A DNA stretch of 33,752 bases from IMG/VR virus record IMGVR_UViG_3300046010_011471, positions 1 through 33,752 of that record; one strand, 5' to 3'. Under the pieces are notes generated by a model that did not search any database, was not told where the DNA came from, and saw only the letters and a list, made by a program, of their open reading frames with translations. A program made the translations under genes and the position numbers. Positions 1,823 through 33,160 of this stretch are shown piece by piece. Position 1 is the stretch's first letter, and each line of letters opens with the position of its first letter. This stretch comes from a virus.

Positions 1823-2046
1823 CGATATTTTAATGTAAAGTAAGTAGAGTCTTCTTCTGATAATTCGCCATATATGGTTACTTTATAACCAAAGCTATTT
1901 TGGTCTACCATAATTCTATAGGTAGGTGATGCACAATGTTGCATTACCCATTGTCCTATTTCTGTCTTTTGCCATTCAGATAATGGTCCAGCTGCACAGA
2001 TTGTCGGATCTTCTACATCTCCTAACGTAAGTTCATGAAAGATCAT
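1819..2046 (-). CDS. small hypothetical protein, 75 aa
   Basis: I do not recognise this protein. It is mildly acidic, with no membrane segment and no obvious motif. Two aromatic-rich stretches (NSFGYKVTIYG and STYFTLKYR) suggest a small beta-rich fold. It overlaps both neighbours by four bases, coupled in the ATGA manner to the radical SAM gene upstream and the epimerase gene downstream. Its reading frame is therefore very likely translated as part of the sugar/radical-SAM operon. Function unknown. Confidence 0.6.
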   Translation of the reverse strand: MIFHELTLGDVEDPTICAAGPLSEWQKTEIGQWVMQHCASPTYRIMVDQNSFGYKVTIYGELSEEDSTYFTLKYR

Positions 2047-14220: not shown

Positions 14221-14619
14221 TTAACTTATTTCCGTTCTACCATTACCTAAATCATTCTTATCTACTCTACGCGGTCTAGAATCAATTGGCTGATTGGCTT
14301 CCCACTGCTCAAAATTTTCATTCAAAATATTTCTGCAGATACTTTGAAACCATCTATCTACTATTTCTGCATCTGTGTCGGTTTTCTTTATCATATAACC
14401 AGACTTGACTAATTTTGCAATAAAAATTTCGTTCCAATCTAATTCAAATGCCCCGTTGCCTATATCATCTGGATCAAGTTCAACCGCAATCACACTAACA
14501 TAAGGCTCGCCTGCTTCAGTAGACAGTTCTTTTGGTGTTTTTGGCTTTGCTCTAGATTTTTGACTTTCTGGTTTAGATTCTGTCTTTACTTCTGGTTTCT
14601 TTTTGAACCAATCAAACAT
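14221..14619 (-). CDS. hypothetical protein with lysine-rich N-terminus, 132 aa
   Basis: Not recognised. I prefer the start at 14619, which overlaps the QueE stop as TAATG; an in-frame ATG at 14631 is also possible. A short FDWFKKKPE start is followed by a lysine/proline/serine-rich linker (about residues 8-35) and a folded domain with a GNGAFELDWNEIF segment. The arginine-rich PIDSRPRRVDKND sequence is near the C-terminus. Translation is probably coupled to queE, but no functional link is shown. Confidence 0.6.
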   Translation of the reverse strand: MFDWFKKKPEVKTESKPESQKSRAKPKTPKELSTEAGEPYVSVIAVELDPDDIGNGAFELDWNEIFIAKLVKSGYMIKKTDTDAEIVDRWFQSICRNILNENFEQWEANQPIDSRPRRVDKNDLGNGRTEIS

Positions 14620-15464
14620 TATGTGCCCCATTCATTTTTAAACAAAGGTACTTGTAATCTATCACTATATCTTAACCCATGTTTCATTGCTAGATCTGCT
14701 ACACGTCGATTGTTAAGAGTATAAACACTCTCCACACCTCCCACTGGCATGAGATAGATAGGACCTTTGAAACCTTTATTTCTATATTGATCTCGAGCTT
14801 TCAGTGCGTCCTCGACATCTTCTTCTGTTGCAACAACAAACTTAAGGTAAGTGTAGCCAACTTCTTCATATTCGCAAACAACATCCGGGCAAATTGCTTC
14901 CTCCCAATTTTCGCCGCTTGCTGGCAATTTAGCACTTACACTAAAAGTAATATCATCTTTATTGCGATTACCGCTTGACCAATTATTCAAGTATTCTTTA
15001 AATACTGGATCCAGTTTTTGTGTACCGTTAGTTTCAAAAGTAATTTCTTTCAGCCGTTGCATACGTGGATGATTAAGCAAATCTGGATAAGCACGTTGCC
15101 ATCCTAACAAAGGCTCACCGCCGGTAATTACCAAGTGTTCGTCTTTCCATTTACCATATGGAAGAATTTGCATAATACGTTCTACAATAGCTTCTGTGGT
15201 AAGCATAGGACTTAGATCTTTAAATCTTGGATCCCAGCTTGCATAACTATCACATCCTGTACTTACTAATGGAAGTTCTTCGTATTTTATATATTTGGCA
15301 GGATCGACATTATTGGCCTCTTCGCTTAGTTGCCCTCTAGGCATACCAAAGCCTGCACACTTAAAGTTACAACCAAATGTTCGAAGGAATACACTAGGTA
15401 CACCCATGTATCGACCTTCGCCTTGAATGCTGTAAAACAGCTCTGCTATCTTGATTTTTGACAT
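14619..15464 (-). CDS. queE: QueE-like 7-carboxy-7-deazaguanine synthase (radical SAM)
   Basis: QueE converts 6-carboxytetrahydropterin to 7-carboxy-7-deazaguanine (CDG), the third step from GTP. The 281-residue protein begins with the family-typical IAELFYSIQGEGRYMGVPSVF and has radical SAM cysteines C32-x3-C36. The third cysteine appears to be C71 in STGCDSYASWD, giving C-x3-C-x34-C instead of the usual C-x3-C-x2-C. This resembles the expanded cluster loop known from some QueE proteins and, as far as I recall, marine T4-like phage versions. LVITGGEPLLGW follows. FolE, QueD and DpdA are encoded elsewhere in the window, supporting a DNA-modification role. Confidence 0.88.
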   Translation of the reverse strand: MSKIKIAELFYSIQGEGRYMGVPSVFLRTFGCNFKCAGFGMPRGQLSEEANNVDPAKYIKYEELPLVSTGCDSYASWDPRFKDLSPMLTTEAIVERIMQILPYGKWKDEHLVITGGEPLLGWQRAYPDLLNHPRMQRLKEITFETNGTQKLDPVFKEYLNNWSSGNRNKDDITFSVSAKLPASGENWEEAICPDVVCEYEEVGYTYLKFVVATEEDVEDALKARDQYRNKGFKGPIYLMPVGGVESVYTLNNRRVADLAMKHGLRYSDRLQVPLFKNEWGT

Positions 15465-17503: not shown

Positions 17504-18324
17504 TGTGAAATAAACGCACGAACTATGTAATCAAATCGTCTATCAATCGTGCTATAATCATCACAGCCAGTAGCAATAATAATACGGCCAAAACATAACC
17601 TAGGATCGTCATTTGTCTCAATCCCCCATTGTTGTTGAAAAAAATCTTGGTGCTTACTCACCCAATCTTTAAATCCTTTTACGTCATTGAATATATGACT
17701 ATCGTCTGGTAAAAACCATTTGATTCCAGATCCAACTTTGTGTTGTATTACACAACTTGTATGTAAACTTGTATCATCTTGATACAAATAGCTATTATGC
17801 GGACTTCGTCCTACATGACTAAAATCATCTTGGATGAAGTTGATACATGGTTCGGTTGTAAATTCTTTATAATCATCTAGGGTCATATCTATCATTAACC
17901 CAGGAGGAACCCATTGGATTTTTTTAAAAACCACTTCAGTGGCCCCTTGCCATATACTTTCTAAATAATGAATATCATTATGTAATCGTAAATGTAAGTT
18001 GGCTTGATCTTTATGCTGTTCGATGAATCTATGTACAGTATTAACTAAATTTTGATCTATAAAATTTGAATCAATTTCAGAGGTTTCGAGGAATTTTTGA
18101 ATATCTGGATCTTGACGAACAGCTAATGCAATCCTGTCTTGATAGACACTTGGGTCTCGTTTGTAGAATTTAGGGTATCCGTAATAGCTGGGAACTTTAT
18201 CCTGCACACTTTTAATGCATTCGACCCACTTGTCAGAATAAGAACCCGGCCGGATATCGAATTCTAAATCTATGAATTCTTTACCGTCGGGTTTTTTAGC
18301 ACATCTGATTACAAATTTACGCAA
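17500..18324 (-). CDS. hypothetical protein, 274 aa
   Basis: Not recognised. It is a soluble protein rich in tryptophan, aspartate and histidine (NLHLRLHNDIHYLESIWQGA; SHVGRSPHNSYLYQDD; DPRLCFGRIIIATGCDDYS). Short conserved-looking motifs suggest an enzyme or binding protein rather than a structural coil. It sits between queD (8-base overlap) and the 448-aa protein (4-base overlap), so it is co-expressed with both. A role in the deazaguanine pathway is possible but not shown. Confidence 0.6.
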   Translation of the reverse strand: MRKFVIRCAKKPDGKEFIDLEFDIRPGSYSDKWVECIKSVQDKVPSYYGYPKFYKRDPSVYQDRIALAVRQDPDIQKFLETSEIDSNFIDQNLVNTVHRFIEQHKDQANLHLRLHNDIHYLESIWQGATEVVFKKIQWVPPGLMIDMTLDDYKEFTTEPCINFIQDDFSHVGRSPHNSYLYQDDTSLHTSCVIQHKVGSGIKWFLPDDSHIFNDVKGFKDWVSKHQDFFQQQWGIETNDDPRLCFGRIIIATGCDDYSTIDRRFDYIVRAFISQ

Positions 18325-18832
18325 ACAGATCCTCGTTCCATTCGCGATGACCTTCTCTGAATGCCATATTACTTTGTGTTTCTCTTACTTCGACTCTGTA
18401 ACACCAAAGTCTTTCTGCTTCACTAGGTCCCCACATATCGGGAATATATACACCATTCACATATTTGTATAGCATATCAGCTAGGCCTTCGCAACCAAGT
18501 CTTGGCAAGATAGTTAGTTTGGCTAACTTTTTTTCTTGTAGTAAATGAAAAGTTTCAATTTCGGGATCGTCTTGTGCAACAAGTAGAGTATGATCAAATT
18601 GATCTTCTAGTATAGATTTAAGTTCTTTGAGACCACCGTAGTCAGCTGCCCAGTTACGAACATCTAAATGATCTGTACCAAAATAAAATTTCATTGAGAA
18701 ACTGTAACCATGAATTAGATTGCAGTGACTGTCAGCACGCCATTGACGATACGCACAAGGAAATGCGTCGTGATATTCTTTGGTACTAGTGTATTTGTAA
18801 ACTCTAGATGGATATACTTCGTTTAAAAACAT
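18317..18832 (-). CDS. queD: QueD-like 6-carboxytetrahydropterin synthase
   Basis: QueD turns dihydroneopterin triphosphate, the product of FolE, into 6-carboxytetrahydropterin. The 171-residue protein matches the 6-pyruvoyl-tetrahydropterin synthase/QueD T-fold: SHCNLIHGYSFSMKFYF (catalytic cysteine C37, zinc ligand H41), QFDHTLLVAQDDPE (D80-H81 pair) and a late acidic residue in EVRETQSN. Two of the usual zinc histidines look replaced by tyrosine: Y28 in PCAYRQW and Y43 in HGYSF. This may be a phage subfamily trait or may change metal binding. AGGAG precedes the ATG. Confidence 0.8.
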   Translation of the reverse strand: MFLNEVYPSRVYKYTSTKEYHDAFPCAYRQWRADSHCNLIHGYSFSMKFYFGTDHLDVRNWAADYGGLKELKSILEDQFDHTLLVAQDDPEIETFHLLQEKKLAKLTILPRLGCEGLADMLYKYVNGVYIPDMWGPSEAERLWCYRVEVRETQSNMAFREGHREWNEDLFA

Positions 18833-18929: not shown

Positions 18930-19460
18930 TTAATTTTCCCACCAATTTTCCCATGGGAATACTACCCAACAGGGATCATCTAGTTTATTAATATTACGAC
19001 CCGAATAATCTACATGCTCATAATTACTTGATTCGTTATTAATTAATGCAGCGAATCTAACATTTTTATTCCATATAGCTTGCCAGGCAGGGTGTCCTGA
19101 TAAACATGAAGATTGCCAATCCACTCGAATCCATTCCATAGTAGATCCGGTATCGTTGATATCATCTACAACAAGAATTTTTTTACGATATGCTGGATCA
19201 GTTTCTGTTCCACTGTCACCGCGATCTTCTATTGGTACATACCCGAAGGCATCTTCGGCCATCCAGCAATTGCTTTCAGACCTTGGTTTGAGAGTTTCCA
19301 TTGGAACATCAAAATAATGACTAATCATTGTAGCAGCAGTAAGACCACCACGAGTAAGTCCTACCACATAGTCAGGTCGCCAATCACTGTTAGCAATATC
19401 TCTACAAAGTTTATGAACAAGACTTTTAAACTCTGTGTCTGAAATAACTAATTGTTTCAT
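18930..19460 (-). CDS. phosphoribosyltransferase
   Basis: The 176-residue protein has a typical type I phosphoribosyltransferase PRPP loop, KILVVDDINDTGST at about residues 94-107 (acidic pair D99-D100), and the upstream YVVGLTRGGLTAA loop near residues 31-43. The sequence between (SESNCWMAEDAFGY) is unusual. The closest general resemblance is to xanthine/hypoxanthine/guanine phosphoribosyltransferases, so it may salvage purines. In this phage it could also act on a 7-deazaguanine base, but that is speculation. Its ATG overlaps the upstream stop (TAATG). Confidence 0.85.
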   Translation of the reverse strand: MKQLVISDTEFKSLVHKLCRDIANSDWRPDYVVGLTRGGLTAATMISHYFDVPMETLKPRSESNCWMAEDAFGYVPIEDRGDSGTETDPAYRKKILVVDDINDTGSTMEWIRVDWQSSCLSGHPAWQAIWNKNVRFAALINNESSNYEHVDYSGRNINKLDDPCWVVFPWENWWEN

Positions 19461-21246: not shown

Positions 21247-21942
21247 TTATCTAGGTGCAAATTCTTGTTGAAGCTTGATGTTATCAAAAAATTCTTTCTT
21301 GGTACTTTGATCATCTTTAAAAGCACCTCTTAACACTGTGGTCTGGGTGAGACTGCTGTGTGCCATAATGCCTCTATTCTCGCAGCATCCATGTGTGGCC
21401 TGTATGTATACAGCCACATCCTTGCTTCCAGTTGCAAATTCAATTTCTCGTGCAATATCCATGCAAAGCTCTTCCTGTAGCGTTCCGCGACGAGCGCACC
21501 ATTGAGCAATGCGGGTGTATTTAGAAAGCCCGATGAGTTTTGGTCCAGCAATAATACCAATATATGCCACGCCTGTAACAGGTTGGTGATGATGACTGCA
21601 AACACTCTTAAGCTCAGAACGGACGACGAGCATGCCGTCATAGGCTCCTTCAGTGTCATTTGGAAACGCAGTTGCGTTAGGTGTCGGATCATATCTACCT
21701 GCCATTAATTCATTGTAATACATTTTAGCAAGACGACGAGCTGTACCTTGGCTATTAGGATCTGTTGCTCTATCAATCAACAGTGTGTCTAGCACTTGTT
21801 CAAATGCTTCTGTGGCTTCGTCAATCAGCTGATCCTTGTCTTCATCCGTTACATAACTGCTGATATTGTCTCCGGCCCAGTACCTTTTACCGTCGGCCTG
21901 CATTTGTTCTCTAATTCTATCACTTACTCGTGTGTATTTCAT
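21247..21942 (-). CDS. folE: GTP cyclohydrolase I
   Basis: Converts GTP to dihydroneopterin triphosphate, the entry to both folate and 7-deazaguanine pathways. The 231-residue protein has zinc ligands in CSHHHQPVTG (C115, H118) and THGCCENRG (C186), plus the GLSKYTRIAQWCARR substrate region and the ATGSKDVAVYI strand. The usual HLCM/HYCV element is HGCC here. With QueD, QueE and DpdA in the same window, the likely role is to feed deazaguanine synthesis for DNA modification, with folate as an alternative. GGAG lies upstream of the ATG. Confidence 0.93.
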   Translation of the reverse strand: MKYTRVSDRIREQMQADGKRYWAGDNISSYVTDEDKDQLIDEATEAFEQVLDTLLIDRATDPNSQGTARRLAKMYYNELMAGRYDPTPNATAFPNDTEGAYDGMLVVRSELKSVCSHHHQPVTGVAYIGIIAGPKLIGLSKYTRIAQWCARRGTLQEELCMDIAREIEFATGSKDVAVYIQATHGCCENRGIMAHSSLTQTTVLRGAFKDDQSTKKEFFDNIKLQQEFAPR

Positions 21943-22527
21943 TTATTCTCCGATGATTGTAATATCTCTAAGATCTGGATATTCGTGATATTTAGGCGGT
22001 TCATTTACAAAATATAATTTTTCTAAACCAATTCGTGCATCTTCGATAGTGGGCCTATAATGGTAACCAATCTTGAAAACACGTTGTTCTTGCCATGGCG
22101 AGACGGATAAGTCCCTACCATCGTATCTTTGCTGTAATAAAAAGCCATATGCTTCCTTGTCGTCTAATAGTATAGCACCACCGTGACCTATTTGTAAAGG
22201 CTTGTTATGACCAAAACTTAAACATTGCATCATTCCGGGTCTATACATTCCTTCTTCTAATCTTCTTGCACTATCCCAAATATCCGTTCCATAAAATCTA
22301 TATTCGCCCGTCCATTTTTCAGGAACAAGTTCGTATTCAATGCCCAACTTGTGCATAGTCATGGGTATAGATAGATAGGTATATGCGCTAAACTGTACTC
22401 GTTTTACTTTTTTATAACGCAAACATAATTCAATTGCATGAGTACAACAATCTGTCATGATTGCGTATGGTGCGCCAGTTTTCTTTGCTAGTAATTTTTC
22501 GAATTGTGCTATTTCTTCAAACGCCAC
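21943..22527 (-). CDS. short DegT-type PLP aminotransferase-like protein, 194 aa
   Basis: Resembles the N-terminal half of DegT/DnrJ/EryC1 aminotransferases: TGAPYAIMTDCCTHAIELCL, an acidic residue in DIWDSARRL (D85), and the PLP lysine K109 in SFGHNKPLQIGHGGAILL. The usual C-terminal 150-200 residues are absent, and the protein ends soon after IEDARIGLEKLYF. Translation appears to start at a GTG (22527) inside the end of the GalE-like gene, because the family N-terminus begins there. Whether the short form is active is unclear; it keeps the lysine. It follows GalE, so it probably belongs to the same sugar pathway. Confidence 0.75.
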   Translation of the reverse strand: MAFEEIAQFEKLLAKKTGAPYAIMTDCCTHAIELCLRYKKVKRVQFSAYTYLSIPMTMHKLGIEYELVPEKWTGEYRFYGTDIWDSARRLEEGMYRPGMMQCLSFGHNKPLQIGHGGAILLDDKEAYGFLLQQRYDGRDLSVSPWQEQRVFKIGYHYRPTIEDARIGLEKLYFVNEPPKYHEYPDLRDITIIGE

Positions 22528-23482
22528 GGGTATACCATTTGTAAGCAGAATCGATAATTTGATTTATTGTAGAATAATTTGGTTTCCATTTTAAAACAGA
22601 CTGTGCTAGTGTTGCATCGGCAATCAATTGTCCAGGATCGCCAGGTCTACGTTCTCCTACTATTAACTTGAGTGGACCGTATTTTAAATTAATATAATCA
22701 ACAATTTGTTGATTGCTTATGCCGCTGTTAGTACCTAAGTTAAACACTGCAAATTGCTTGTTAGTGTTCCATTGTATCGCTCTATAATGTGCGTCTGCTA
22801 GATCCCAAACATGAATGTAATCTCTTATACATGTTCTGTCTGGAGTATCAAAATCTACCCCATTTAATGTAAAAAACTCATTATTAAGTTTAGATTCTAG
22901 AAGCCGAGCTATAATATGTCCTGCACCTGGTGCTTGACCTAGATCATAATTGTTCGGTTCAGCACCAGCTGCGTTAAAGTATCTAAAACATACCGCGGGT
23001 AATTCATATGCTTGATTGTAGTTTAACAATACTTGTTCAATGATATCCTTGGTATGACCATACGGGCTAATAGGTTTTATCCGGTCTGTCTCAACCAATG
23101 GAACATGATCAGGGTTGCCGTACACACTAGCACTAGAACTAAAAAGAACAAGCGGTTTCTTTTTATAATCCTTAACATGATTTAAAAATGTAATTGTCTT
23201 TGCAACATTGTTATCATAATATTTTGCAGGATCTTCGACACTCTCTCTGACACTAATATCTCCTGCACAATGCACAATGACATCAGGTTGTATTTCGTCT
23301 AACCATAATAAACTTTGGCGTGATACATAATCTGTATGTAAAAAACCATCAATGTTTTTTAATGTATGATCTCTACGTTCTTGGTCAATTATATAGACAG
23401 CAATATTTTCTTTTGTATGTTTTAAGTAACGAGCAATATGACTACCAATATAGCCACATCCTCCTGTAATTACTACTTTCAT
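22517..23482 (-). CDS. galE: GalE-like UDP-glucose 4-epimerase
   Basis: 321 residues of the extended SDR family. NAD-binding GGCGYIGS lies at residues 7-14, HCAGDISVRESVEDP matches the GalE HxAG...VxES segment, the catalytic serine is in FSSSASVYG (117-119), and YxxxK is Y141-K145 (YGHTK). RYFNAAGAEP and DYIHVWDLADAH near residues 168 and 222 are GalE hallmarks. It interconverts UDP-glucose and UDP-galactose or their N-acetyl forms. The next genes, an aminotransferase-like one downstream and a glycosyltransferase upstream, suggest a nucleotide-sugar pathway feeding a glycosylation step. Confidence 0.88.
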   Translation of the reverse strand: MKVVITGGCGYIGSHIARYLKHTKENIAVYIIDQERRDHTLKNIDGFLHTDYVSRQSLLWLDEIQPDVIVHCAGDISVRESVEDPAKYYDNNVAKTITFLNHVKDYKKKPLVLFSSSASVYGNPDHVPLVETDRIKPISPYGHTKDIIEQVLLNYNQAYELPAVCFRYFNAAGAEPNNYDLGQAPGAGHIIARLLESKLNNEFFTLNGVDFDTPDRTCIRDYIHVWDLADAHYRAIQWNTNKQFAVFNLGTNSGISNQQIVDYINLKYGPLKLIVGERRPGDPGQLIADATLAQSVLKWKPNYSTINQIIDSAYKWYTRGV

Positions 23483-24255
23483 TGTATGTATTTTTTCTCT
23501 TTTAAGAATGGCATTACAACTTGATCAACAAAAGCTTTATGTGAATCAGCAGTTGGGTGCCCTTGGTTGTCGGCAAAAGTTAACCCGTTATTTTTTACCC
23601 ACTCGTATTCACCGTCGACCGGTATAAAATGATCAAAATCAATTTCTTCGTACAAATGACGCATTGAATTTTTGCCTTGCATATTTTCAAAAATATTTTT
23701 TATTGTAGTCATAAAGTATTTTATTTTATGCAATTTTAACAACCACTGCACTCTCAGAATATGTTCAAGTGCAATTATTTGTGATTGTTCATGATTATAA
23801 AAATTCCTAACATACATTTCTCCCAACGGTTCGTCATGTCTAAGTATTCCCCATCCTGCGTGACTACAATTTGTTAAATCCCAGGTATAAGGATTATAAA
23901 ATTTCATTGATTTATAGAAAGTATTATCATTATGTAGAACTGGTTGACCATAATTAAAATCTAAATCATTTCTTTGGTCAAATCGTACTAGAGTAGAGTG
24001 TCGAGACTCGCTGCTCCACATAATTCCTACTAATATATCACTTGCATCATAATTTTTTAATAATGAACTCAGTTTCCATACTATTTGTCTAGATATCAAA
24101 TCGTTACCTTGACCACCCACTGCGTCACTATAGTGTTTTTCTATCTTTAATGATTCTTGTAAAAATAATGGCCATGTGTAATCACTTTTTGACTTAGAAT
24201 TGGTTCCTGTTTTTATTTGAGAAAAACTACAGCCCCCAGTTAGCAATATTTTCAT
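23479..24255 (-). CDS. SGNH-hydrolase-like protein, 258 aa
   Basis: Shows SGNH-type blocks: GGCSFS near residues 7-12 (candidate S10), GGQGND (48-52) and a C-terminal D237-x-H239 in GHPTADSH. The first 20 residues are mildly hydrophobic but do not form a clear signal peptide. It shares this block plan with the protein at 13476-14219, though overall similarity looks low. It lies between GalE and a glycosyltransferase, so it may remove or add acyl groups on a glycan. Its ends overlap both neighbours by four bases. Confidence 0.6.
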   Translation of the reverse strand: MKILLTGGCSFSQIKTGTNSKSKSDYTWPLFLQESLKIEKHYSDAVGGQGNDLISRQIVWKLSSLLKNYDASDILVGIMWSSESRHSTLVRFDQRNDLDFNYGQPVLHNDNTFYKSMKFYNPYTWDLTNCSHAGWGILRHDEPLGEMYVRNFYNHEQSQIIALEHILRVQWLLKLHKIKYFMTTIKNIFENMQGKNSMRHLYEEIDFDHFIPVDGEYEWVKNNGLTFADNQGHPTADSHKAFVDQVVMPFLKEKKYIQ

Positions 24256-25448
24256 TGATACTTGCTTTCGTGTGTATGTTTTCTATAATCTGTACTCATA
24301 CGCAACCACCTTTCTCCGTTACCTTCGAGAATATCGCAGATGCGATCAATTGTTCCGTCGTTCCACGCACTAAATCGACCCATGTTGTTGTGCGGATGTT
24401 GTAAGAGGGGTACAAGTTTTTGTACTGCATCTCTAAGCGACCACGGCACATAAAGTCTCTCGCTATCATTTGCAAAAGCTTCGGGGAAACTTCTGTATGC
24501 GGGGTATAAGATATTAGCCCCAAGAGCGTCAGCCTCACTTGCTGTGTTCGAAACCCAATCCTGAAGAGCACAATTAAACAATACTCGCGTATCATTAAGT
24601 AGAGCATAATAATCATTCTTTTCGAGGTCTTCGTATACAGTTAACTTGCCTTCTGCTTGTAGTCTGCGTGTACGCTCCATATACGAGCTATTGTTTGAAC
24701 GCAACTTACTGCCACTGAACACACAGAATTCAACTCGAGGCCACGCATTGTATGGCAATGCTTGTAATCTGTGATACTCTTCAATAAGATCCATGTAGAA
24801 GTCCGGTTGCTTCTCTTGATCCCATCTAGCAGCAAAACCTACACGGTAAGCTCTATCTTCGAATTTCTTTAGCTCACCAGGTACACGACCACGCACTTCT
24901 TCTTTACCAAACGCTAGTCCACTGATATTGTACAGTCTACCTCGCCATCCTGCAACCTTCATGTGCATGACCATTTCTTCGTTAGTGGCAAGAATGATGT
25001 CTGCAAATGAATCTACCATCTTTTCGTAATGCCCCATCCATTCCTGCATGCCCCAGACATGAACAAAGTCATCCGGGTCAATAGTTTGTGCAAGACAACG
25101 AACGGCAATACGAGGACGCATGTTAGCAGGCACTTGATCAAGAATGTAAGGTAAGCTCTCGATGCCGGGTTGAAACATGTCTTCAAAGTAGATAATGTCT
25201 TCACTGTTAACTTCTCCTGCTTTCATTTTACGAACTAGATTCATCAATTGGCTCATGCCAAAGTATGTTCGACCGTGTGCGTCTAACACTTGACCAGTAA
25301 CAATTGCCTGATCATTGCTTAGTGTTTCGCCGGGCACGATTTCATAATCAATACCTCGTCGTTCAAATACACTACGGTTCCATTCTTGCAGTTGTAGTGT
25401 ATATCTTGCTTTATAGGGTTCAAGACCCATGTACCATAATTTACGCAT
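24252..25448 (-). CDS. glycosyltransferase-like protein (GT-B type)
   Basis: 398 residues from the start at 25448, chosen because GGAGG lies 9 bases upstream and the ATG overlaps the upstream stop (TAATG); a start at 25499 would lie inside the neighbouring gene. The C-terminal half has GT-B/GT4-like features: RVGFAARWDQEKQPDFYMDL, VEFCVFSGSK, and LFNCALQDWVSNTASEADAL, where the conserved acidic residues bind the nucleotide sugar. It is coupled to GalE and SGNH-like genes. The acceptor could be a glycan, virion protein or modified DNA; the sequence does not say. T4 glucosylates its DNA with GT-B enzymes, but similarity to those is not evident. Confidence 0.75.
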   Translation of the reverse strand: MRKLWYMGLEPYKARYTLQLQEWNRSVFERRGIDYEIVPGETLSNDQAIVTGQVLDAHGRTYFGMSQLMNLVRKMKAGEVNSEDIIYFEDMFQPGIESLPYILDQVPANMRPRIAVRCLAQTIDPDDFVHVWGMQEWMGHYEKMVDSFADIILATNEEMVMHMKVAGWRGRLYNISGLAFGKEEVRGRVPGELKKFEDRAYRVGFAARWDQEKQPDFYMDLIEEYHRLQALPYNAWPRVEFCVFSGSKLRSNNSSYMERTRRLQAEGKLTVYEDLEKNDYYALLNDTRVLFNCALQDWVSNTASEADALGANILYPAYRSFPEAFANDSERLYVPWSLRDAVQKLVPLLQHPHNNMGRFSAWNDGTIDRICDILEGNGERWLRMSTDYRKHTHESKYQ

Positions 25449-25711
25449 TATAACCATCCTCCGGCACGGGCAATACCGACAATTCCAACTAGAATCCAAA
25501 ATCCGTTAAGCAATGTGTAAGCTCTATCTTGTTTTAGAATTGCACAGTAAGTTAATAGTATAGCATCTAAGGTATTAACTATCCAAACTAGCATAAACGG
25601 ACTAGCAGGACCTAACCAAGATACTAATGTAAAACAAAAAATACGCATAACTACTCCTGCCATTTCCATAGCAGGAATATTGTTTTTAATAAAATCTGTT
25701 ATCGATTTCAT
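25448..25711 (-). CDS. small membrane protein, 87 aa
   Basis: Three probable membrane segments (about residues 15-33, 38-57 and 66-85), with GPASPFMLVWIVNTLDAILL in the middle. Not recognised by family. It overlaps the glycosyltransferase start (TAATG) and the upstream gene stop (ATGA). Possible roles include anchoring a glycosyltransferase complex, but there is no direct evidence. Confidence 0.6.
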   Translation of the reverse strand: MKSITDFIKNNIPAMEMAGVVMRIFCFTLVSWLGPASPFMLVWIVNTLDAILLTYCAILKQDRAYTLLNGFWILVGIVGIARAGGWL

Positions 25712-25926
25712 TGGCGTTCTTTTTTAACGTACCACATGTTTCTAGGTTCACGACCTTTTAGACCACGTTGAAAGTCGCCCCATGGCGATTTTTCGTTATA
25801 CAAATGGCGTTCATCAAATGGATGTCCATATTGTACACAAAATTCACGATAACGATCAAGATCGTCAAAGATGGTTGATACTTCTGGTTTCATTACCAGA
25901 TATTTTTTGAGCCATTTAGCGGCCAT
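25708..25926 (-). CDS. small hypothetical protein, 72 aa
   Basis: Not recognised. It is basic and aromatic (YREFCVQYGHPFDERHLYNE; SPWGDFQRGLKGREPRNMW), with a KKYLVMKPEVSTIFDDL helix near the N-terminus. AAGGAGAACAAA precedes the ATG. Confidence 0.6.
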   Translation of the reverse strand: MAAKWLKKYLVMKPEVSTIFDDLDRYREFCVQYGHPFDERHLYNEKSPWGDFQRGLKGREPRNMWYVKKERQ

Positions 25927-25936
25927 TTTGTTCTCC

Positions 25937-26386
25937 TTAAATTTTTATTGATAGAGAGGGTTGATGAGTCGCGTAAGTAATTGTGCAACCGTTTTCGTTG
26001 TCTTCACTTACACTTATTGTAACATTACGATCAGGATATCTGTTAGCAATTTGAACATACAAGTCGTCTGCAATCATTTCGCATGATTTGTAGTCCAATC
26101 GCAAACAATTCGTTTCCCTTGAATACAGTGATTCCAACCACCGTTTAAATTGGATGAACTCGATATCACGGTCATTGTGATATACGTCGATCGACACCCG
26201 GAAATGGAAAATGTGACGATGAGGATGAGCCAAAAACGAAACATCATAATAATCTCCGGAGGCTAGTTGTGGATCCGTACTAGCAGCCGGATAACAATGA
26301 ATACCTTCACGTTGGAAGGTTACCCAAATCTGTCTTGCTGCACGTTCTAGGATTCTTTCTGTGATTTCTCTTTGTTCTTGATTCAT
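25937..26386 (-). CDS. possible T-fold (QueD-like) protein, 149 aa
   Basis: I do not recognise a named family, but the layout suggests the tetrahydropterin-binding T-fold: an HPHRHIFHFRVSIDVYH strand with four histidines (H54, H56, H58, H61), IEFIQFKRWLESLY, then LDYKSCEMIADDLYVQIANR (C102-E103), and finally strand NVTISVSEDNENGCTITY. The SCExxA...L and final V-x-V-x-E pattern resembles the end of QueD/PTPS enzymes. The gene lacks a Shine-Dalgarno, and TATAAT lies within 12 bases of its ATG. Next to dpdA's radical SAM neighbours, a second pterin/deazaguanine-type enzyme would be meaningful, but this is inference. Confidence 0.5.
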   Translation of the reverse strand: MNQEQREITERILERAARQIWVTFQREGIHCYPAASTDPQLASGDYYDVSFLAHPHRHIFHFRVSIDVYHNDRDIEFIQFKRWLESLYSRETNCLRLDYKSCEMIADDLYVQIANRYPDRNVTISVSEDNENGCTITYATHQPSLSIKI

Positions 26387-26410
26387 AATTTATTATAACA
26401 AATTGTAAAA

Positions 26411-27625
26411 TTAATTCCTATACTCATATATTTCAGGAAATATAGGTTGGCTTTGTAAATTTCTCATATTATCAAATCGTTCAAAAGATTTGAACACTGA
26501 GTAAGTTAATGATTGATCATAAGGAAGTTTAAGTATATTTTCTATATGACGAATTTGTTGATTTAAATTAGGAGAATTATAGGTTTTCGATTCGATAATT
26601 TTAATCACTTCTTCTAAATACTTTTTTGGTAGTCCACGAGGATCCCACGCATCAGTGATACCATGTCCGTTATTAATATAACGTACACTAACATGATCTT
26701 CTTTAAATCCCTTATCTAATAAAAAATCTATACATTCAAATATTGTTTTTGAATTTAACGAACAATAAACCATACTAAATGCAATTTTGTCTGCAGATAC
26801 AAGCTCTTTTAGTTTATAGAGATTGCTTAAAAAAATTTCCCAATTTCCTTTAAAACGTATGTAGTTAAATCTTTCGTGCATATCATCTACACTGACAGTC
26901 CAAAAAGTTTTTTTGAATTTCATAATACTATCGAAAATTTTATTTTCACGTATCAATGATAAGTTAGTATTCACTCTTATTTCGCAGTCTGGATTCACTT
27001 CATACAGTTTTTCTAAAAAATGTATATTTTCTTTGATATATAAAGGTTCTCCGCCGGCAAGATATAATATTTCTAATTCATGTGCATGATTATCAAAAAA
27101 TTTATAAACAGAATCTATTTTATTTGGATTTATTTTGATAATTGGTTTGTTAACTTCTTCATGTGTAATACCGCTCACCACAATTGGCGATCCTATTTCT
27201 TCCATTTCTCTGACAGAACTGAGTGCAGGTCCGCAATAAACACAACCAAAATTACAGGTATTTTTTAATCTTAAGTCAAAATATTTTAATTCGAAGTTTT
27301 CTGACTTATTGTAAAATTCTTTATTGCCATTTTTTAGTATTTTTTTGTACCATTCTTTTAGGGTTACATCATAATTAAATTCTTCTGATGCATGACTTAT
27401 CGGATGACATATTTTACACCCTTCGGGAATAATATCATTGCTCATTTGTTTTTTAATTTCTATATTTCTTGCACCATGTACTGCTTGTTCTATAGAAATA
27501 TCATTGACGTTACCAAGATTATTTTTACTTACGCAACAGCTATCTATTTCGCCATCGGGTTGCAAATAAACAGATTTCCAAGGTAGTGGACAAAATGATT
27601 TGTTATTCCATATGGAATCACTCAC
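26411..27625 (-). CDS. radical SAM protein with N-terminal extra cysteine cluster
   Basis: 404 residues with C124-x3-C128-x2-C131 (CNFGCVYC) and LAGGEPLY near residue 217. Its N-terminal cysteines C12, C30-C31, C70 and C73 match those of the protein at 2043-3260 almost residue for residue, so the two are paralogues with an N-terminal twitch/SPASM-like cluster. The FCPLPWKSVYLQPDGEIDSC segment is typical of this group. The start overlaps the stop of the 171-aa gene by four bases. The gene is in the same run as dpdA and the B12-type radical SAM gene. The substrate is unknown. Confidence 0.85.
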   Translation of the reverse strand: MSDSIWNNKSFCPLPWKSVYLQPDGEIDSCCVSKNNLGNVNDISIEQAVHGARNIEIKKQMSNDIIPEGCKICHPISHASEEFNYDVTLKEWYKKILKNGNKEFYNKSENFELKYFDLRLKNTCNFGCVYCGPALSSVREMEEIGSPIVVSGITHEEVNKPIIKINPNKIDSVYKFFDNHAHELEILYLAGGEPLYIKENIHFLEKLYEVNPDCEIRVNTNLSLIRENKIFDSIMKFKKTFWTVSVDDMHERFNYIRFKGNWEIFLSNLYKLKELVSADKIAFSMVYCSLNSKTIFECIDFLLDKGFKEDHVSVRYINNGHGITDAWDPRGLPKKYLEEVIKIIESKTYNSPNLNQQIRHIENILKLPYDQSLTYSVFKSFERFDNMRNLQSQPIFPEIYEYRN

Positions 27626-28137
27626 CTGATAACCTCATCGTTAGTATATTTTGACCAATCCGTAAAACAGTTTTCTCTACGCATTAATTTATGAACACTG
27701 TGACACCAAACACCTGGATTAGTAGCAGCAAAATCTTTGTCATCTAGCTTAATTGTAGCGTTATATCCTAATTGTTGTATATAGGGCAATTTTACAGACA
27801 GCATGGGAATAAATTTATGGTATTCTGTCAGTCCGGTTTCTAGCAAACCTTCTGCTTCGCTTACATCAATATCTAAAGTGCACCAATATCCACGACCAAT
27901 AAAAGGCATAATCATATTTTCCCATCTAGTCCAATCTGAACTGTCTGCACGACCGTTAGGAAAACTTTGATTGGCACCAAAATAGATATGTGTACATTTA
28001 TGAGCAATAGCTGCTGCCTCAATTAAATCTTTATCTTGAACACCTATAACAAAAAGTGTTTTTTGTCCGTAGGCAGGAGTATACTCTACTTCTAACCCAA
28101 CAAAGAGTTTGGTATTATTGTGATTTGGTCTATTCAT
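27622..28137 (-). CDS. hypothetical protein, 171 aa
   Basis: Not recognised. It is soluble with probable alternating strands and helices (KTLFVIGVQDKDLIEAAAIA; THIYFGANQSFPNGR; GYWCTLDIDVSEAEGLL; MLSVKLPYIQQLGYNATIKL). Near the C-terminus is NPGVWCHSVHKLMRREN. The look is that of a small alpha/beta enzyme domain. It overlaps the upstream gene by one base and the radical SAM gene by four, so it is translated with them. A role in the dpdA-linked pathway is plausible by position only. Confidence 0.65.
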   Translation of the reverse strand: MNRPNHNNTKLFVGLEVEYTPAYGQKTLFVIGVQDKDLIEAAAIAHKCTHIYFGANQSFPNGRADSSDWTRWENMIMPFIGRGYWCTLDIDVSEAEGLLETGLTEYHKFIPMLSVKLPYIQQLGYNATIKLDDKDFAATNPGVWCHSVHKLMRRENCFTDWSKYTNDEVIR

Positions 28138-28514
28138 TATTTTTTCAAAAGATATAAAAGTAAGTTTTGAGAAACTGCTGTTGCATGTACTTTAATTATA
28201 CATGTACCTATCTCATCTAGCCAACCGTAAGTTTTTTTTATTTTACCATTTACAATATAAGAACTAAAGGAATCAAAATAGTTTAACTGAACATTATCTA
28301 TAGAAACCTTGGTAATATGTAGATATGATTCCGATGTTGTTTTCTTTAATAGTGAAACGCATATTTTGTTAACCTCTACATTATTAAAATCTGTACAGTA
28401 AATAAATTCATTATTGAGATTTTTTTCTAAATGTCCTGTAGGAGAAATATCAAATTCAATTTCATCATCACTGGCCTTAAGAAAAATATATAACTTTTTT
28501 TCTGTGTTGATCAT
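28137..28514 (-). CDS. hypothetical protein, 125 aa
   Basis: Not recognised. It is mostly beta-strand-like (KLYIFLKASDDEIEFDIS; ESYLHITKVSIDNVQLNYFD; SSYIVNGKIKKTYGWLDEIG) with a leucine-rich end. Its first 38 bases overlap the end of the B12-type radical SAM gene. There is no membrane segment. Function unknown. Confidence 0.6.
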   Translation of the reverse strand: MINTEKKLYIFLKASDDEIEFDISPTGHLEKNLNNEFIYCTDFNNVEVNKICVSLLKKTTSESYLHITKVSIDNVQLNYFDSFSSYIVNGKIKKTYGWLDEIGTCIIKVHATAVSQNLLLYLLKK

Positions 28515-30015
28515 AAATTTTTTTAAGATCCTCTAATTCTCCAAAATGTTTTTTCATATCCATAGCCCAGAAAAATTTATAATCTAGCTCGTAAGCATAA
28601 TCAACTATTTTCTTAAATCTATTATATCTTGTTTCAAACGTGTTTTGCATATTATTTGCTGTAGTCCAGAAATATCTATAGTGCGAATTTTTATAAAATT
28701 GTGGATCCCATTGAAACTGATCCAAGTATTTCTGTTCTTTCACAAGAGGTACATCATCATTAAGTTGGAATGGAAGAGTAATATTTAATTGTATCATTCC
28801 ATTAGAATTATATTTTTTCTGTCTTTTGAGTAAATCTAAAGTTTGATTAAAATCATCATCAGTTTCTGTTGGATATCCGACCATTAAAAGCCATGCTTGT
28901 ATAATATTATTTTTAAACAACTGATGTGTTCCATAATCTAAATCTTCGTTGCTAAAATTTTTACGCATGTGTTTTCTTACTGATTCACTGCCAGATTCTA
29001 CTCCAATACTCCAACGATAACATCCTGCTAATCCTGCTAATTTGAAGTCATCCTCGGGCATTGACTGTTTGTCTCTAAAAATAGCATATCCACTGTATTT
29101 TATTTTTCTCGGAATACTATTTGCTAATACTTGATTCATTCTTCTAAAATTAGGTACACTTCCATTTATCAAGTTATCGGTAAATTCAAAATTAGTAATT
29201 CCAGTTTTATGATACGTACTAATAATATCAGCTGCTACATTTTCTCCTTTTCGAAATATATAATCAGGCCAATACTTAGAAACATCACAGAAACTACAGT
29301 TTCTTACACATCCTTTACTTGCAGTAATAACCATTGATCTCGGATCATGAAATTTCCTTGTTTCATCTACAGTAACCTCTATTTCCTGCAATTGATTATA
29401 AAAGTCAAAATTATAAAAATTCCAGTCTGGACTTGGTATATTATCTAAATCCTGGCCGGTTTGTTTCTTACTAAAGATTAATCCTGATTTATTATTTTTG
29501 ATTGTGTCTATTACTTCTGTTTCGGCATCGCCTATAATTATGATATCGGCTAATCCGTGATCAAGATATTTTTGATAATGAGGTTTGTTTTCAACATTAC
29601 AATTTGATTCTAAACCGCGTCCTCCTAACATAATTTTAACACCTGGCAGATATTTTCTTATGTAAGGTATTAGAAAATAACTGAAATTAATACTTTCTGT
29701 GGTAAAAATAGATAGACCAATAATACTGGGATTATGCTCTTTTTTAATCTTTAGTAAGTTTCTTTTTAGAAACTTTAACAGATCAACTACCGGTCTAAAG
29801 TAGTTTAGATTTTCGTCAATGGTGCCTACGGCTAGAAATAATTTTAAATTATTCCAGTAAGGCTTGTTTATAAATTCAACTGCAAAGTCAATACTTAGGT
29901 CCAAACCTACAGCTTTTATTCCTGCATTATTCAAACAGGAACTGATTAAAGCCGGAGCCATTGCTGGTACCATTTCTGTATATGGTACACTAACAATAAC
30001 TACGTTTTCATTCAT
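28477..30015 (-). CDS. B12-binding-domain radical SAM protein
   Basis: 512 residues from the start at 30015, which overlaps the end of the DUF465-like gene; an in-frame ATG at 30078 would overlap that gene far more. The N-terminal part (about residues 4-170) has the alternating strand/helix plan of a cobalamin-binding domain (VVIVSVPYTEMVPAMAPALI, SIIGLSIFTTESINFSYFLI, KIMLGGRGLE) but lacks the DxHxxG cobalt ligand. The radical SAM motif C236-x3-C240-x2-C243 is in KGCVRNCSFCDVS. WSIGVESGSESVRKHMRKN is the usual later strand. Such enzymes methylate or rearrange unactivated carbons. It sits three genes from dpdA's end, so action on a deazaguanine derivative is possible. Confidence 0.85.
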   Translation of the reverse strand: MNENVVIVSVPYTEMVPAMAPALISSCLNNAGIKAVGLDLSIDFAVEFINKPYWNNLKLFLAVGTIDENLNYFRPVVDLLKFLKRNLLKIKKEHNPSIIGLSIFTTESINFSYFLIPYIRKYLPGVKIMLGGRGLESNCNVENKPHYQKYLDHGLADIIIIGDAETEVIDTIKNNKSGLIFSKKQTGQDLDNIPSPDWNFYNFDFYNQLQEIEVTVDETRKFHDPRSMVITASKGCVRNCSFCDVSKYWPDYIFRKGENVAADIISTYHKTGITNFEFTDNLINGSVPNFRRMNQVLANSIPRKIKYSGYAIFRDKQSMPEDDFKLAGLAGCYRWSIGVESGSESVRKHMRKNFSNEDLDYGTHQLFKNNIIQAWLLMVGYPTETDDDFNQTLDLLKRQKKYNSNGMIQLNITLPFQLNDDVPLVKEQKYLDQFQWDPQFYKNSHYRYFWTTANNMQNTFETRYNRFKKIVDYAYELDYKFFWAMDMKKHFGELEDLKKIYDQHRKKVIYFS

Positions 30016-30220
30016 CGCCGTAGCCAACTCGTTGAGTTTCTTCTTCCCATTGAAGTTTGCTAAGTCGACTGATTTCATCTTTGAGATGCAATTTTTTCTT
30101 TTTCATTTCTGCAAGATGCACTTCATCTACATGAGGATGATTAACTTGCATTTCGTTTATTTGTTTATCGATTAATCTGTGCATTTCTTCTAAATGTTTA
30201 ATACGTCCTTTGTATGACAT
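30008..30220 (-). CDS. DUF465/YdcH-like small coiled coil, 70 aa
   Basis: A two-helix coiled-coil protein with the pattern of the DUF465 family: RIKHLEEMHRLIDKQINEMQ in the first helix and LAEMKKKKLHLKDEISRL in the second. The biological role of this family is not known. The ATG directly follows the dpdA stop, and the Shine-Dalgarno (GAGGAGGAAAG) lies within the last dpdA codons. Its end overlaps the start of the B12-type radical SAM gene. Confidence 0.75.
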   Translation of the reverse strand: MSYKGRIKHLEEMHRLIDKQINEMQVNHPHVDEVHLAEMKKKKLHLKDEISRLSKLQWEEETQRVGYGDE

Positions 30221-31786
30221 TTAACTTTCCTCCTCAAAAATACTCGGTAACAAAATAGGTTTAGTCTTTTCCTTCTTTACTTTATCAAGTTTAACTGAAC
30301 CTTCAATTTCTAAATGTTGACTGGCCATTGTAAACGAATTAGTTGTTTTTTCTCCTTTGAAACCTCGTGTACCTACAATCTGCTCCCAATATCCTTTTGG
30401 TCTAGCATACTTGTCGGCATTGACAATATCTAATGCTGCTTGTTTTGTAGGAGCAGCAAATATTCTATCAACTATGTCTACAAAATATTCAGCATCGACA
30501 TGATCATGTCGCATCATATACGGATACTCTCCTGCGTCAAAGGCTCGATTAGCACGTTGTACACTTTCAATATGCATCCAAACATTATGACCCATTAATA
30601 GTGCATAACTAAAGCTATCCCAACTAGTTCTACCTTCTTTACCATTTTTATTTAAGTCGCCGGGCTTGTATACACAAATGTCTTTTATTTGACATCGAGC
30701 ACTTATTGGAGACTCATCAAAATGATCGACTAAGTTATCTTGAAGTACGGCATCTCTATAGCCACGTGTATCTGTTGCATATTTTTTGTCATCTACAATT
30801 GGGCTCATTCGATAGCACCATTTGCCTTCATGTGGTAAATCAATATGATGATACACTTGACCGTTTGCGGTTGCCAAGAAAGGACTTGCACAGTCGAAAC
30901 TGATAGTGAAGTTGGGATTGACATACTTGCGTACTGCTCGTTGTATAACTGTGAGTAGTACCGCCCACTCCAGTTTACTAGTACCCAAGAAGTGCATCCA
31001 GTCATGCACACCCTCTTGTAATAAATTATCGTAACGTAAGGTCACCAATCGTTTTAGTATCAGATGAATGTCGCACATGTTTTGTCCACCCATGGCCCAT
31101 CCATCAAAATGTGTATCTGGATATTTTGAAGGGTCGCAGAACTCTTTCATTTCTTGATACCATTCTTCCGCCGATGTGTGATTGTCACCTTGTAACACGT
31201 TTAAAAATTTAGCACCACCATTCTTTTTGCCCCGACGGTGTTGCATAAAATATAAATTATTAAACTTGGTTGCATCAACAGCTTCTTGCAAGGTTGTTAT
31301 ACCACACGCCGCACTGGCTTTTTTGTCGTGTATAACCCAAGTTGGAATATCTAAGATCATACCATAATCAGCAATACCATCTAACCATTTTAACACAAGC
31401 TCGCGTTTCTTTTGCGCCTTGGTACATCCCGAGTTAGCTTTCCAATCACCTTCCCACAATCCTTTGGCAATCTGGAATCCTCCTGAGTCGCCTAACATAA
31501 ATGTACCGGGCTCTCGTTTGCGAACCATGTCTTCGCTAGCGTCTTCCTTGGCTAGATCTAGATTTGCATGTCCGCCCGAGTAGAGACTCCATTGGTAGGG
31601 GAACAAGGCTTTTTGGCTGTTGAGCCAATTGAGTTGCTCCATGTCCTGTAATGCCGCAGGCATACGAGCAGGATCAACATAGTCATTGTTAACACGTTGT
31701 TTGCCTATAAAAGTTGCATAAAAGCCAGATATAGCAGGTAGGAAAATTGCGTAGTCTGATTGCTTTGCAGTAAGGTTATCTTGCAT
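30221..31786 (-). CDS. dpdA: DpdA-type DNA 7-deazaguanine transglycosylase
   Basis: 521 residues related to tRNA-guanine transglycosylases. GDSGGFQ at about 99-105 contains the general-base aspartate D100. Other shared elements are LDIPTW (D146), VLQGDN (the VQGG-like loop), GWAMGGQ (GYAxGG-like) and FDCASPF with D298 in the nucleophile position. The tRNA-enzyme zinc site (CxCxxC) is absent, as in DpdA proteins, which exchange guanine in DNA for a 7-deazaguanine base. FolE, QueD and QueE are in the same window, so the phage probably makes and inserts such a base. No QueC is seen here. A lysine-rich C-terminus (KVKKEKTKP) may contact DNA. Confidence 0.85.
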   Translation of the reverse strand: MQDNLTAKQSDYAIFLPAISGFYATFIGKQRVNNDYVDPARMPAALQDMEQLNWLNSQKALFPYQWSLYSGGHANLDLAKEDASEDMVRKREPGTFMLGDSGGFQIAKGLWEGDWKANSGCTKAQKKRELVLKWLDGIADYGMILDIPTWVIHDKKASAACGITTLQEAVDATKFNNLYFMQHRRGKKNGGAKFLNVLQGDNHTSAEEWYQEMKEFCDPSKYPDTHFDGWAMGGQNMCDIHLILKRLVTLRYDNLLQEGVHDWMHFLGTSKLEWAVLLTVIQRAVRKYVNPNFTISFDCASPFLATANGQVYHHIDLPHEGKWCYRMSPIVDDKKYATDTRGYRDAVLQDNLVDHFDESPISARCQIKDICVYKPGDLNKNGKEGRTSWDSFSYALLMGHNVWMHIESVQRANRAFDAGEYPYMMRHDHVDAEYFVDIVDRIFAAPTKQAALDIVNADKYARPKGYWEQIVGTRGFKGEKTTNSFTMASQHLEIEGSVKLDKVKKEKTKPILLPSIFEEES

Positions 31787-32428: not shown

Positions 32429-33160
32429 TTATTTTTGTTGAGCAGGAAGAATATAATTGTAAAGAGCCAATCCTGAATCAACTGTAATTTGAGCAGCACC
32501 ATCGTCGCTGAAGCGAATAACTTTGTCGCCCGGCAAGCCAAGAATATTAATTACAACAGAAACCGGCCAGTGCCATTGTTTTGATAGCGATCCTGCCACA
32601 TTGTGAGCAAATACAAAATTACCAGCATGACTACTGTGATCACCAAAATAAAACACTAAGTTTTGATTTTCTACCTTGGCAATGAATGAAGTTTCTTCAC
32701 TGTTTGCGCTTGCTTGGAATTTCAATCTTTGTATTGCAGCAACACTTGGCGTAATTTCTACGCCCCAATTGACACCTCTGAATTTTACAGTCTTGAGCTT
32801 ATCGTTGACAACTTCTGCGCTCATGAATCTGTAATCATTTTTAAAGTCGCCGTCTTTATTTTCAAAATGAATACCAGCCGGCACAGTGACATTGTCTTTG
32901 GTATTTGTAATAATGTTCACAGTTGCATCTTCTTTGTATTCTGGAATGTTAAGAATAGTGTTGAGTTTTCCCAAGTTAGGCATTCCGAACACACCAATAA
33001 ATTCTGGAATAGGATTATGGAATTTAGCCTCCAATATTGCAACTCTTTCCTCCGAGACTGCATTTATTACTGTTTCGCTATCTGTTCCTGTAATTTTTAA
33101 TAGATCAATCACACCCAATGAATGAGTGTGTGATACTATGTCAAGTAAATAATCTCGCAT
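32429..33160 (-). CDS. DNA sliding clamp-like protein (gp45 type)
   Basis: 243 residues. Two stretches fit a processivity clamp: EFIGVFGMPNLGKLNTILNI near residue 50, and a C-terminal domain with VAAIQRLKFQASANSEETSF, VSVVINILGLPGDKVIRFSD and the ending DSGLALYNYILPA, which is the Y-x-LPA clamp hallmark. T4 gp45 is 228 residues. In T4 the clamp also activates late transcription. A strong promoter and GGAG Shine-Dalgarno lie upstream. I rate this as likely rather than certain because similarity to gp45 is low. Confidence 0.7.
   Translation of the reverse strand: MRDYLLDIVSHTHSLGVIDLLKITGTDSETVINAVSEERVAILEAKFHNPIPEFIGVFGMPNLGKLNTILNIPEYKEDATVNIITNTKDNVTVPAGIHFENKDGDFKNDYRFMSAEVVNDKLKTVKFRGVNWGVEITPSVAAIQRLKFQASANSEETSFIAKVENQNLVFYFGDHSSHAGNFVFAHNVAGSLSKQWHWPVSVVINILGLPGDKVIRFSDDGAAQITVDSGLALYNYILPAQQK

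Follow-up and report, generated by a model that had tools for sequence, protein, structure and literature searches.

What is done to the DNA of a virus that encodes a DNA guanine transglycosylase next to two radical SAM enzymes and several proteins of no assigned function? This question is raised by the IMG/VR virus record IMGVR_UViG_3300046010_011471, the whole of which (33,752 bases; the window) was analysed, and specifically by the cluster at 25937-30220, directly downstream of dpdA on the minus strand, which also carries queE, queD and folE. The explanation that we favour, with a probability of about 0.55 taken as a whole, is that the cluster is the back half of a QueC-less phage operon for 7-deazaguanine DNA modification, that the modified base is probably glycosylated, and that both radical SAM proteins, along with two small proteins (u125 and a DUF465 coil), are best read as optional cargo inserted between core genes. 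The explanation draws on an established gene content, on conservation, and on folds and homologies. The features concerned, all on the minus strand, are as follows.

32429-33160, minus strand: sliding-clamp-like protein, constant neighbour upstream of dpdA (locus counts; Phosso homologue annotated as a sliding clamp)
30221-31786, minus strand: dpdA, TGT-like DNA guanine transglycosylase, 521 aa (TGT motifs, hhalign)
30008-30220, minus strand: DUF465 coil protein, optional (PF04325)
28477-30078, true start near 30012, minus strand: B12-domain radical SAM protein, passenger (PF04055)
28137-28514, minus strand: u125, 125 aa, accompanies the B12 radical SAM gene (locus distribution)
27622-28137, minus strand: u171, 171 aa, constant dpdA partner (locus conservation)
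26411-27625, minus strand: twitch-domain radical SAM protein, one of many paralogues, read as a passenger (NF033640)
25937-26386, minus strand: u149, QueD-like T-fold protein, proposed enzyme processing 7-carboxy-7-deazaguanine (CDG) (predicted fold, hhalign)
25708-25926, minus strand: u72, small and conserved, encoded between the u149 and glycosyltransferase genes (locus counts)
24252-25448, minus strand: GT4-like glycosyltransferase (GT), 398 aa from the conserved start (conservation, motifs)
22517-23482, minus strand: GalE-like UDP-sugar epimerase, which may supply the sugar donor (TIGR01179, 284 bits; cut-off 262.3)
21943-22527, minus strand: short DegT/StrS-type aminotransferase, 194 aa (PF01041, 44.5 bits)
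21247-21942, minus strand: FolE, GTP cyclohydrolase I (PF01227, 134 bits)
18317-18832, minus strand: QueD, CPH4 synthase (PF01242, 55 bits)
14619-15464, minus strand: QueE, CDG synthase, radical SAM (motifs QGEG, GC...C and TGGEP; alignment to QueE as annotated in ACP17 and PA5oct)

A first-pass annotation had described six genes between 25937 and 30220 and had proposed that, coupled tightly to dpdA, they extend the deazaguanine pathway with the radical SAM enzymes at the centre. All six genes are where it placed them, on the minus strand and downstream of dpdA, and the tight coupling is borne out: neighbours on this one strand overlap by 1-38 nt or are at most 24 nt apart. The family assignments likewise stand: the DUF465-like coil matches PF04325 at 50 bits (cut-off 25), the B12-domain radical SAM protein matches PF04055 (PF02310 being below cut-off), and the twitch-type radical SAM protein matches NF033640 at 232.7 bits (cut-off 170). 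The two proteins called unknown, u125 and u171, have zero matches in Pfam, NCBIfam and PHROGs, and u171 has none in a PDB profile search either.

Which of these genes belong to the pathway is best judged from related loci. We sampled 80 dpdA loci and 80 u171 loci from IMG/VR, chosen as best matches and hence from close relatives, and counted each window gene at those loci with room to show it (eligible loci). Counted from dpdA, every eligible locus carries u171 (74/74), u149 (68/68), u72 (62/62), the GT (57/57), the clamp-like protein (79/79) and a galE-family gene (49/49), with folE (39/48), degT (38/47) and the DUF465 gene (32/56) following; the twitch radical SAM gene (14/47, at low identity), the B12 radical SAM gene (4/42) and u125 (2/42) come last. 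The reverse count from u171 loci finds dpdA at 78/78. Furthermore, the overlap of dpdA with u171 is exactly 4 bp long in 46 of 156 distinct relative loci, as is that of u171 with u149 in 50 of 148. In the window, the DUF465 gene, the B12 gene and u125 occupy the first of these junctions and the twitch gene occupies the second. Other cargo at these junctions in relatives includes genes for an FkbM methyltransferase and a UDP-glucose dehydrogenase (by Pfam) as well as sulfotransferase-like and SGNH-like genes (by eye). A gene of 184-194 aa in the u171-u149 junction of some relatives (L232, 3248-3832, and 13 similar loci) has the look of a restriction-type nuclease by eye and gave zero Pfam matches. 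Because the operon holds conserved proteins of undescribed role that are strictly tied to dpdA, namely u171 and u149, an extension of the deazaguanine pathway is a fair reading of the locus; what fell was the assignment of that extension to the radical SAM enzymes.

The dpdA product itself shows the features expected of its family. A profile of 128 members was matched to bacterial TGT by hhalign at 86% over 217 aligned columns, compared with 1.0% or less for each of seven unrelated control profiles, and the motifs DSGGFQ (100-105), LD146, QG, GxAMGG, FLGTS and FDCASP fall in register with bacterial TGT, D298 of the last being the catalytic Asp. Identity to the PA5oct homologue is 35%. The TGT catalytic core is thus present, and insertion of a 7-deazaguanine into DNA is predicted from it. 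The window protein has zero Pfam matches, the TGT model PF01702 was not above cut-off in 14 related records, and a PDB profile search with DpdA gave nothing convincing by sequence. Such a match is not required of a DpdA, however, because phage DpdA2 was likewise detectable by HHpred profile comparison and not by PSI-BLAST from the 9g DpdA, according to the relevant passages of Hutinet 2019 (PMC6884629).

The possible T-fold enzyme of the first-pass annotation is u149, a member of phrog_17812 (function unassigned in PHROGs), and its fold is now supported by a predicted model. The AlphaFold2 model (pLDDT 86) has the T-fold topology beta-beta-alpha-alpha-beta-beta, as in QueD, and VIA-align placed E. 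coli QueD (4ntk) first, with a Z of 11.2 over 110 residues at 2.3 Å, followed by other QueD/PTPS structures. A diverse u149 profile matched phage QueD at 89% in hhalign; a narrower profile gave 62%, its controls reaching about 1% at most. The residues H30, H56 and H58 (zinc triad H...HxH), an SCE motif, E103 and a late E128 are kept in 12 of 12 divergent members, and zinc binding at the triad is predicted. The strict criteria for a QueD are another matter: the QueD cysteine before HxH is not conserved in the u149 alignment and there is zero match to PF01242, and a PDB profile search with u149 gave nothing convincing by sequence. Moreover, u149 is not this pathway's QueD, since the window has a separate QueD at 18317-18832.

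Where u149 occurs suggests what it replaces. Among 32 records examined, 28 have u149, and the only full-length QueC matches were those of Vibrio phage 2.275.O and Xanthomonas phage PhiXhv-12, both without u149; no record with u149 gave a full-length QueC match. Weak QueC matches in four long relatives and in X1 were set aside as sequences that read as NAD synthetase-type proteins, and those in G001 and D479 are partial QueC-like ATPases. NAD synthetase-like genes picked up in this way were seen in the large phages L277-L280 and L282. Because u149 occupies QueC's place, it would act on CDG. An enzyme called DpdL is reportedly a candidate for a CDG-acting (decarboxylase) step leading to the QueC-less bases dCDG and dDG; u149 may be this enzyme, to the extent that a gene context lacking QueC is consistent with it.

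The best candidate for an extension of the pathway lies just outside the cluster as first described: the GT at 24252-25448 falls beyond the interval 25937-30220 and was missed for that reason. Two tblastn queries against 50,697 phage records found this family in 20, comprising 11 PA5oct-like phages, Phosso, two ACP17 records, X1, BUCT-ZZ01 (62% identical to the window GT) and four distant PhiXhv/Ep032 records, the last group being represented in the gene-context comparison by PhiXhv-12 alone. All six GT lineages examined have 7-deazaguanine genes. In five of them u149 is at most two genes away from the GT, dpdA/TGT, folE or queE is close by, and the gene order differs: DpdA-GT-u149..QueE in PA5oct, QueD-FolE-u171-TGT-GT-u149-QueE in ACP17, FolE..GT-TGT-u149-QueE in X1, QueD-FolE-second GT-TGT-u149-GT in BUCT-ZZ01, and u149-GT..FolE..QueE in Phosso. 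In PhiXhv-12, the distant GT adjoins a PIG-L deacetylase and comes second in the row of genes that follows a glutaminase-QueC fusion. The GT was present in 23 of the 32 records. Within the protein, the motifs R...EKxP and (E/D)x7E of a GT-B/GT4 C-terminal domain are conserved (R208, E212-K213, P215 and E323); comparison with PDB profiles gave weak matches to group 1 glycosyltransferases (best E 0.0019), and the score against PF13524 was below cut-off. Genome context points to a putative action of the GT on a DNA base.

Two of these lineages are worth describing further. BUCT-ZZ01 (L247, 2450-8524) has two different glycosyltransferases flanking TGT and u149, with a purine phosphoribosyltransferase near queD. 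The PhiXhv-12 run (L252, 1564-10821) comprises a Leu/Phe-tRNA transferase-like gene, a GNAT gene, the glutaminase-QueC fusion, the PIG-L deacetylase, the distant GT and a Gfo/Idh oxidoreductase, and seems to encode a further pathway to a 7-deazaguanine bearing a sugar and possibly an aminoacyl group.

The second constant partner, u171, is more restricted: it was found in 19 of the 32 records, all 19 of which also have the GT and u149. Homologues occur in PA5oct-like phages, about 28 kb from dpdA in PA5oct, and in ACP17, where the gene lies between folE and TGT; in BUCT-ZZ01, X1 and Phosso, DpdA or TGT is present and u171 was not found. Among the residues invariant in u171 are E18, H50, N56, E73 and a K-x-D-D-x-x-F...NPGVW motif, and its AlphaFold2 model has a pLDDT of 82. 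Among GTDB species genomes there is a single match, in a 3-kb contig of a Flectobacillus metagenome-assembled genome; there (L166, 1913-2890) u171 is fused in frame to a glutamyl-tRNA reductase-like N-terminus, and the contig is probably an assembly chimera.

Taken together, these observations suggest a sequence of steps in which FolE, QueD and QueE would make CDG, u149 would process it at the step taken elsewhere by QueC, and DpdA would exchange guanine in the DNA for the u149 product. Glycosylation of the modified base by the GT would follow, the activated sugar coming from GalE and possibly from the short DegT aminotransferase. A late step is the likely place for u171, given that its distribution is nested within those of the GT and u149.

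Several alternatives deserve consideration, and two of them concern the genes between dpdA and u149. In the first-pass proposal the two radical SAM enzymes add a methylation or a rearrangement to the 7-deazaguanine base, and their genes are indeed co-directional with the core genes and overlap them. The B12 gene probably begins at codon 23 (ATG at 30012), the codon at which the homologue in L007 starts, so that it overlaps the end of the DUF465 gene by a few nt. Its product is distantly like known methyltransferases, yet against the best NCBIfam model, the PhpK-type P-methyltransferase TIGR04479, it scored 105.7 bits and did not reach the cut-off of 600. Distribution speaks against the proposal: of the 4/42 eligible loci with the gene, only two have it in the dpdA block, where it was seen only in the window, L005 and L007, and u125 is present solely in loci with the B12 gene in that position. 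Among 16 long IMG/VR relatives, not selected for this gene, four have B12 radical SAM relatives (one a weak match), none in the dpdA block and all from about 5 to more than 200 kb away from dpdA. The twitch gene is present in about one tenth of 148 dpdA-u149 blocks, roughly twofold commoner per junction than in the flanks, a rough figure uncorrected for relatedness; a large enrichment given by a first profile shrank to this value with an iterated one. Also against the proposal, NF033640 has 7-16 matches, weak ones included and partly in tandem arrays, in 13 of the 16 long relatives (0 or 1 in the other three). The relatives with many matches include the records behind L125, L130, L137 and L037, and the window itself has a second twitch gene (2043-3260), away from dpdA and near an epimerase gene and thyA. 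Finally, the B12 gene was not found in PA5oct, ACP17 or 2.275.O, and the twitch family gave zero matches in ACP17 and 2.275.O and only a weak one in PA5oct. Co-occurrence with dpdA across relatives thus went largely against both genes; on their distribution across loci and genomes they were rejected as the core of the extension, and their acting on the base is very improbable. It is also conceivable, and compatible with the glycosylation pathway set out above, that u171 is a QueE-type barrel in degenerate form, now devoid of the [4Fe-4S] cysteines, which carries CDG or hands it to DpdA. The u171 model aligned with B. subtilis QueE (5th5) in VIA-align with a Z of 6.2 over 131 residues at 3.6 Å, the longest cover among the top rows, viral QueE is among its BFVD matches, and the 4-bp overlap with dpdA recurs in many relatives. 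Nonetheless, Z values below 8 are common between unrelated alpha/beta folds, u171 is missing from three of the phages with DpdA or TGT named above, and hhalign against the phage QueE profile (from which one row that is not QueE, L165:8789-9568, was excluded) gave 0.1%, which is background. A truncated QueE, plausible by eye and by VIA-align, was rejected on that last result, and the degenerate barrel seems improbable.

The alternative that weighs most is that the base made by the operon stays an undecorated 7-deazaguanine, such as the dDG or dCDG that a DpdL-type u149 would give, and that the GT, GalE and DegT form a virion or host-surface glycan pathway that shares the operon. Several observations favour it over a glycosylated base. 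The window genes for GalE, DegT and the SGNH-like and sulfotransferase-like proteins could serve a virion or host glycan, and dpdA loci often carry sulfotransferase-like, SGNH-like and epimerase genes as cargo. If u149 is a CDG decarboxylase, its product is plain 7-deazaguanine, which, unsubstituted at C7, has no obvious hydroxyl to accept a sugar; either u149 does something else, or the GT uses another position, or the GT serves another substrate. Six isolate phages (phiST, I1_18, Ahp1, Bakedbeans, D479 and Roos) have u149 and no GT, and so the base pathway can do without the GT. The explanation that we favour is further weakened by the u171 fold search, which returned no clear relative (best Z 6.8), and by the sampling, since the loci counted in IMG/VR belong to close relatives, and the conservation is in part that of a single phage group. 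A full-text literature search, covering few subscription papers, found no report of glycosylated 7-deazaguanine in DNA, and the passages found in the papers on PA5oct, Callisto, Paride and a PhiXhv phage contain no base analysis. What speaks against a separate glycan pathway is the confinement of this GT family, within 50,697 records, to phages with 7-deazaguanine genes in all six lineages examined, its position at most two genes from u149 in five distant lineages whose gene content otherwise differs, and the placement of the distant PhiXhv-12 GT as the second gene after a glutaminase-QueC fusion. We therefore consider an undecorated base unlikely, though a serious contender, and retain the glycosylated one.

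Some neighbouring genes are also of note. The sliding-clamp-like protein precedes DpdA in PA5oct and 2.275.O as well, and precedes u149-GT in Phosso. A xanthine/hypoxanthine phosphoribosyltransferase-like gene (18930-19460) adjoins queD in the window and might salvage the guanine released by DpdA; BUCT-ZZ01 has one like it near its own queD. Searches of the window for tRNA genes and Rfam families gave zero matches.

If the glycosylated reading is correct, a sugar-bearing 7-deazaguanine would be the guanine counterpart of the glucosylated cytosine of T4, and a role would be found for the GT family, the QueD-like phrog_17812 and u171, which public libraries list as unknown or omit. To our knowledge, the 7-deazaguanines of phages bear small groups at position 7. 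We are tempted to speculate, at somewhat less than even odds, that a widespread group of large phages has glycosylated 7-deazaguanine DNA, made by a QueC-less branch with dedicated decoration by a GT4-like enzyme after insertion and, in a subset, a further change aided by u171. Because isolate phages carrying the same genes can be grown on laboratory strains (PAO1 for PA5oct relatives, the cyanobacterium S. elongatus PCC 7942 for BUCT-ZZ01), the presence of the sugar is testable at once.

It is informative to set this operon beside known systems. Like the phage systems built on DpdA and DpdA2, as described in the passages concerned of Hutinet 2019 (PMC6884629), it combines FolE, QueD, QueE and a TGT-like DpdA in one phage genome; in contrast to them, no QueC, QueF, Gat or ArcS was seen nearby, and a QueD-like T-fold protein, u171 and a GT are present instead. 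No such glycosyltransferase is named in those passages among the gene groups. In T4, a base is modified first and a phage glycosyltransferase then adds a sugar to the DNA as glucosylated hydroxymethylcytosine, which offers an analogy; here, however, the base would be guanine-derived and inserted after replication by base exchange, and the GT4-like enzyme is found, in the lineages examined, only with 7-deazaguanine genes. The QueC-less systems with CDG-derived bases are said to have a gene set with an extra small protein, which would fit u149 as the enzyme acting on CDG; relative to these, the window adds the GT and u171. Likewise, mannosyl- and galactosyl-queuosine in tRNA carry a sugar on a 7-deazaguanine inserted by TGT. 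Genes for the queuosine cyclopentenediol pathway were not noticed in the window, however, and the substrate here would be DNA rather than tRNA.

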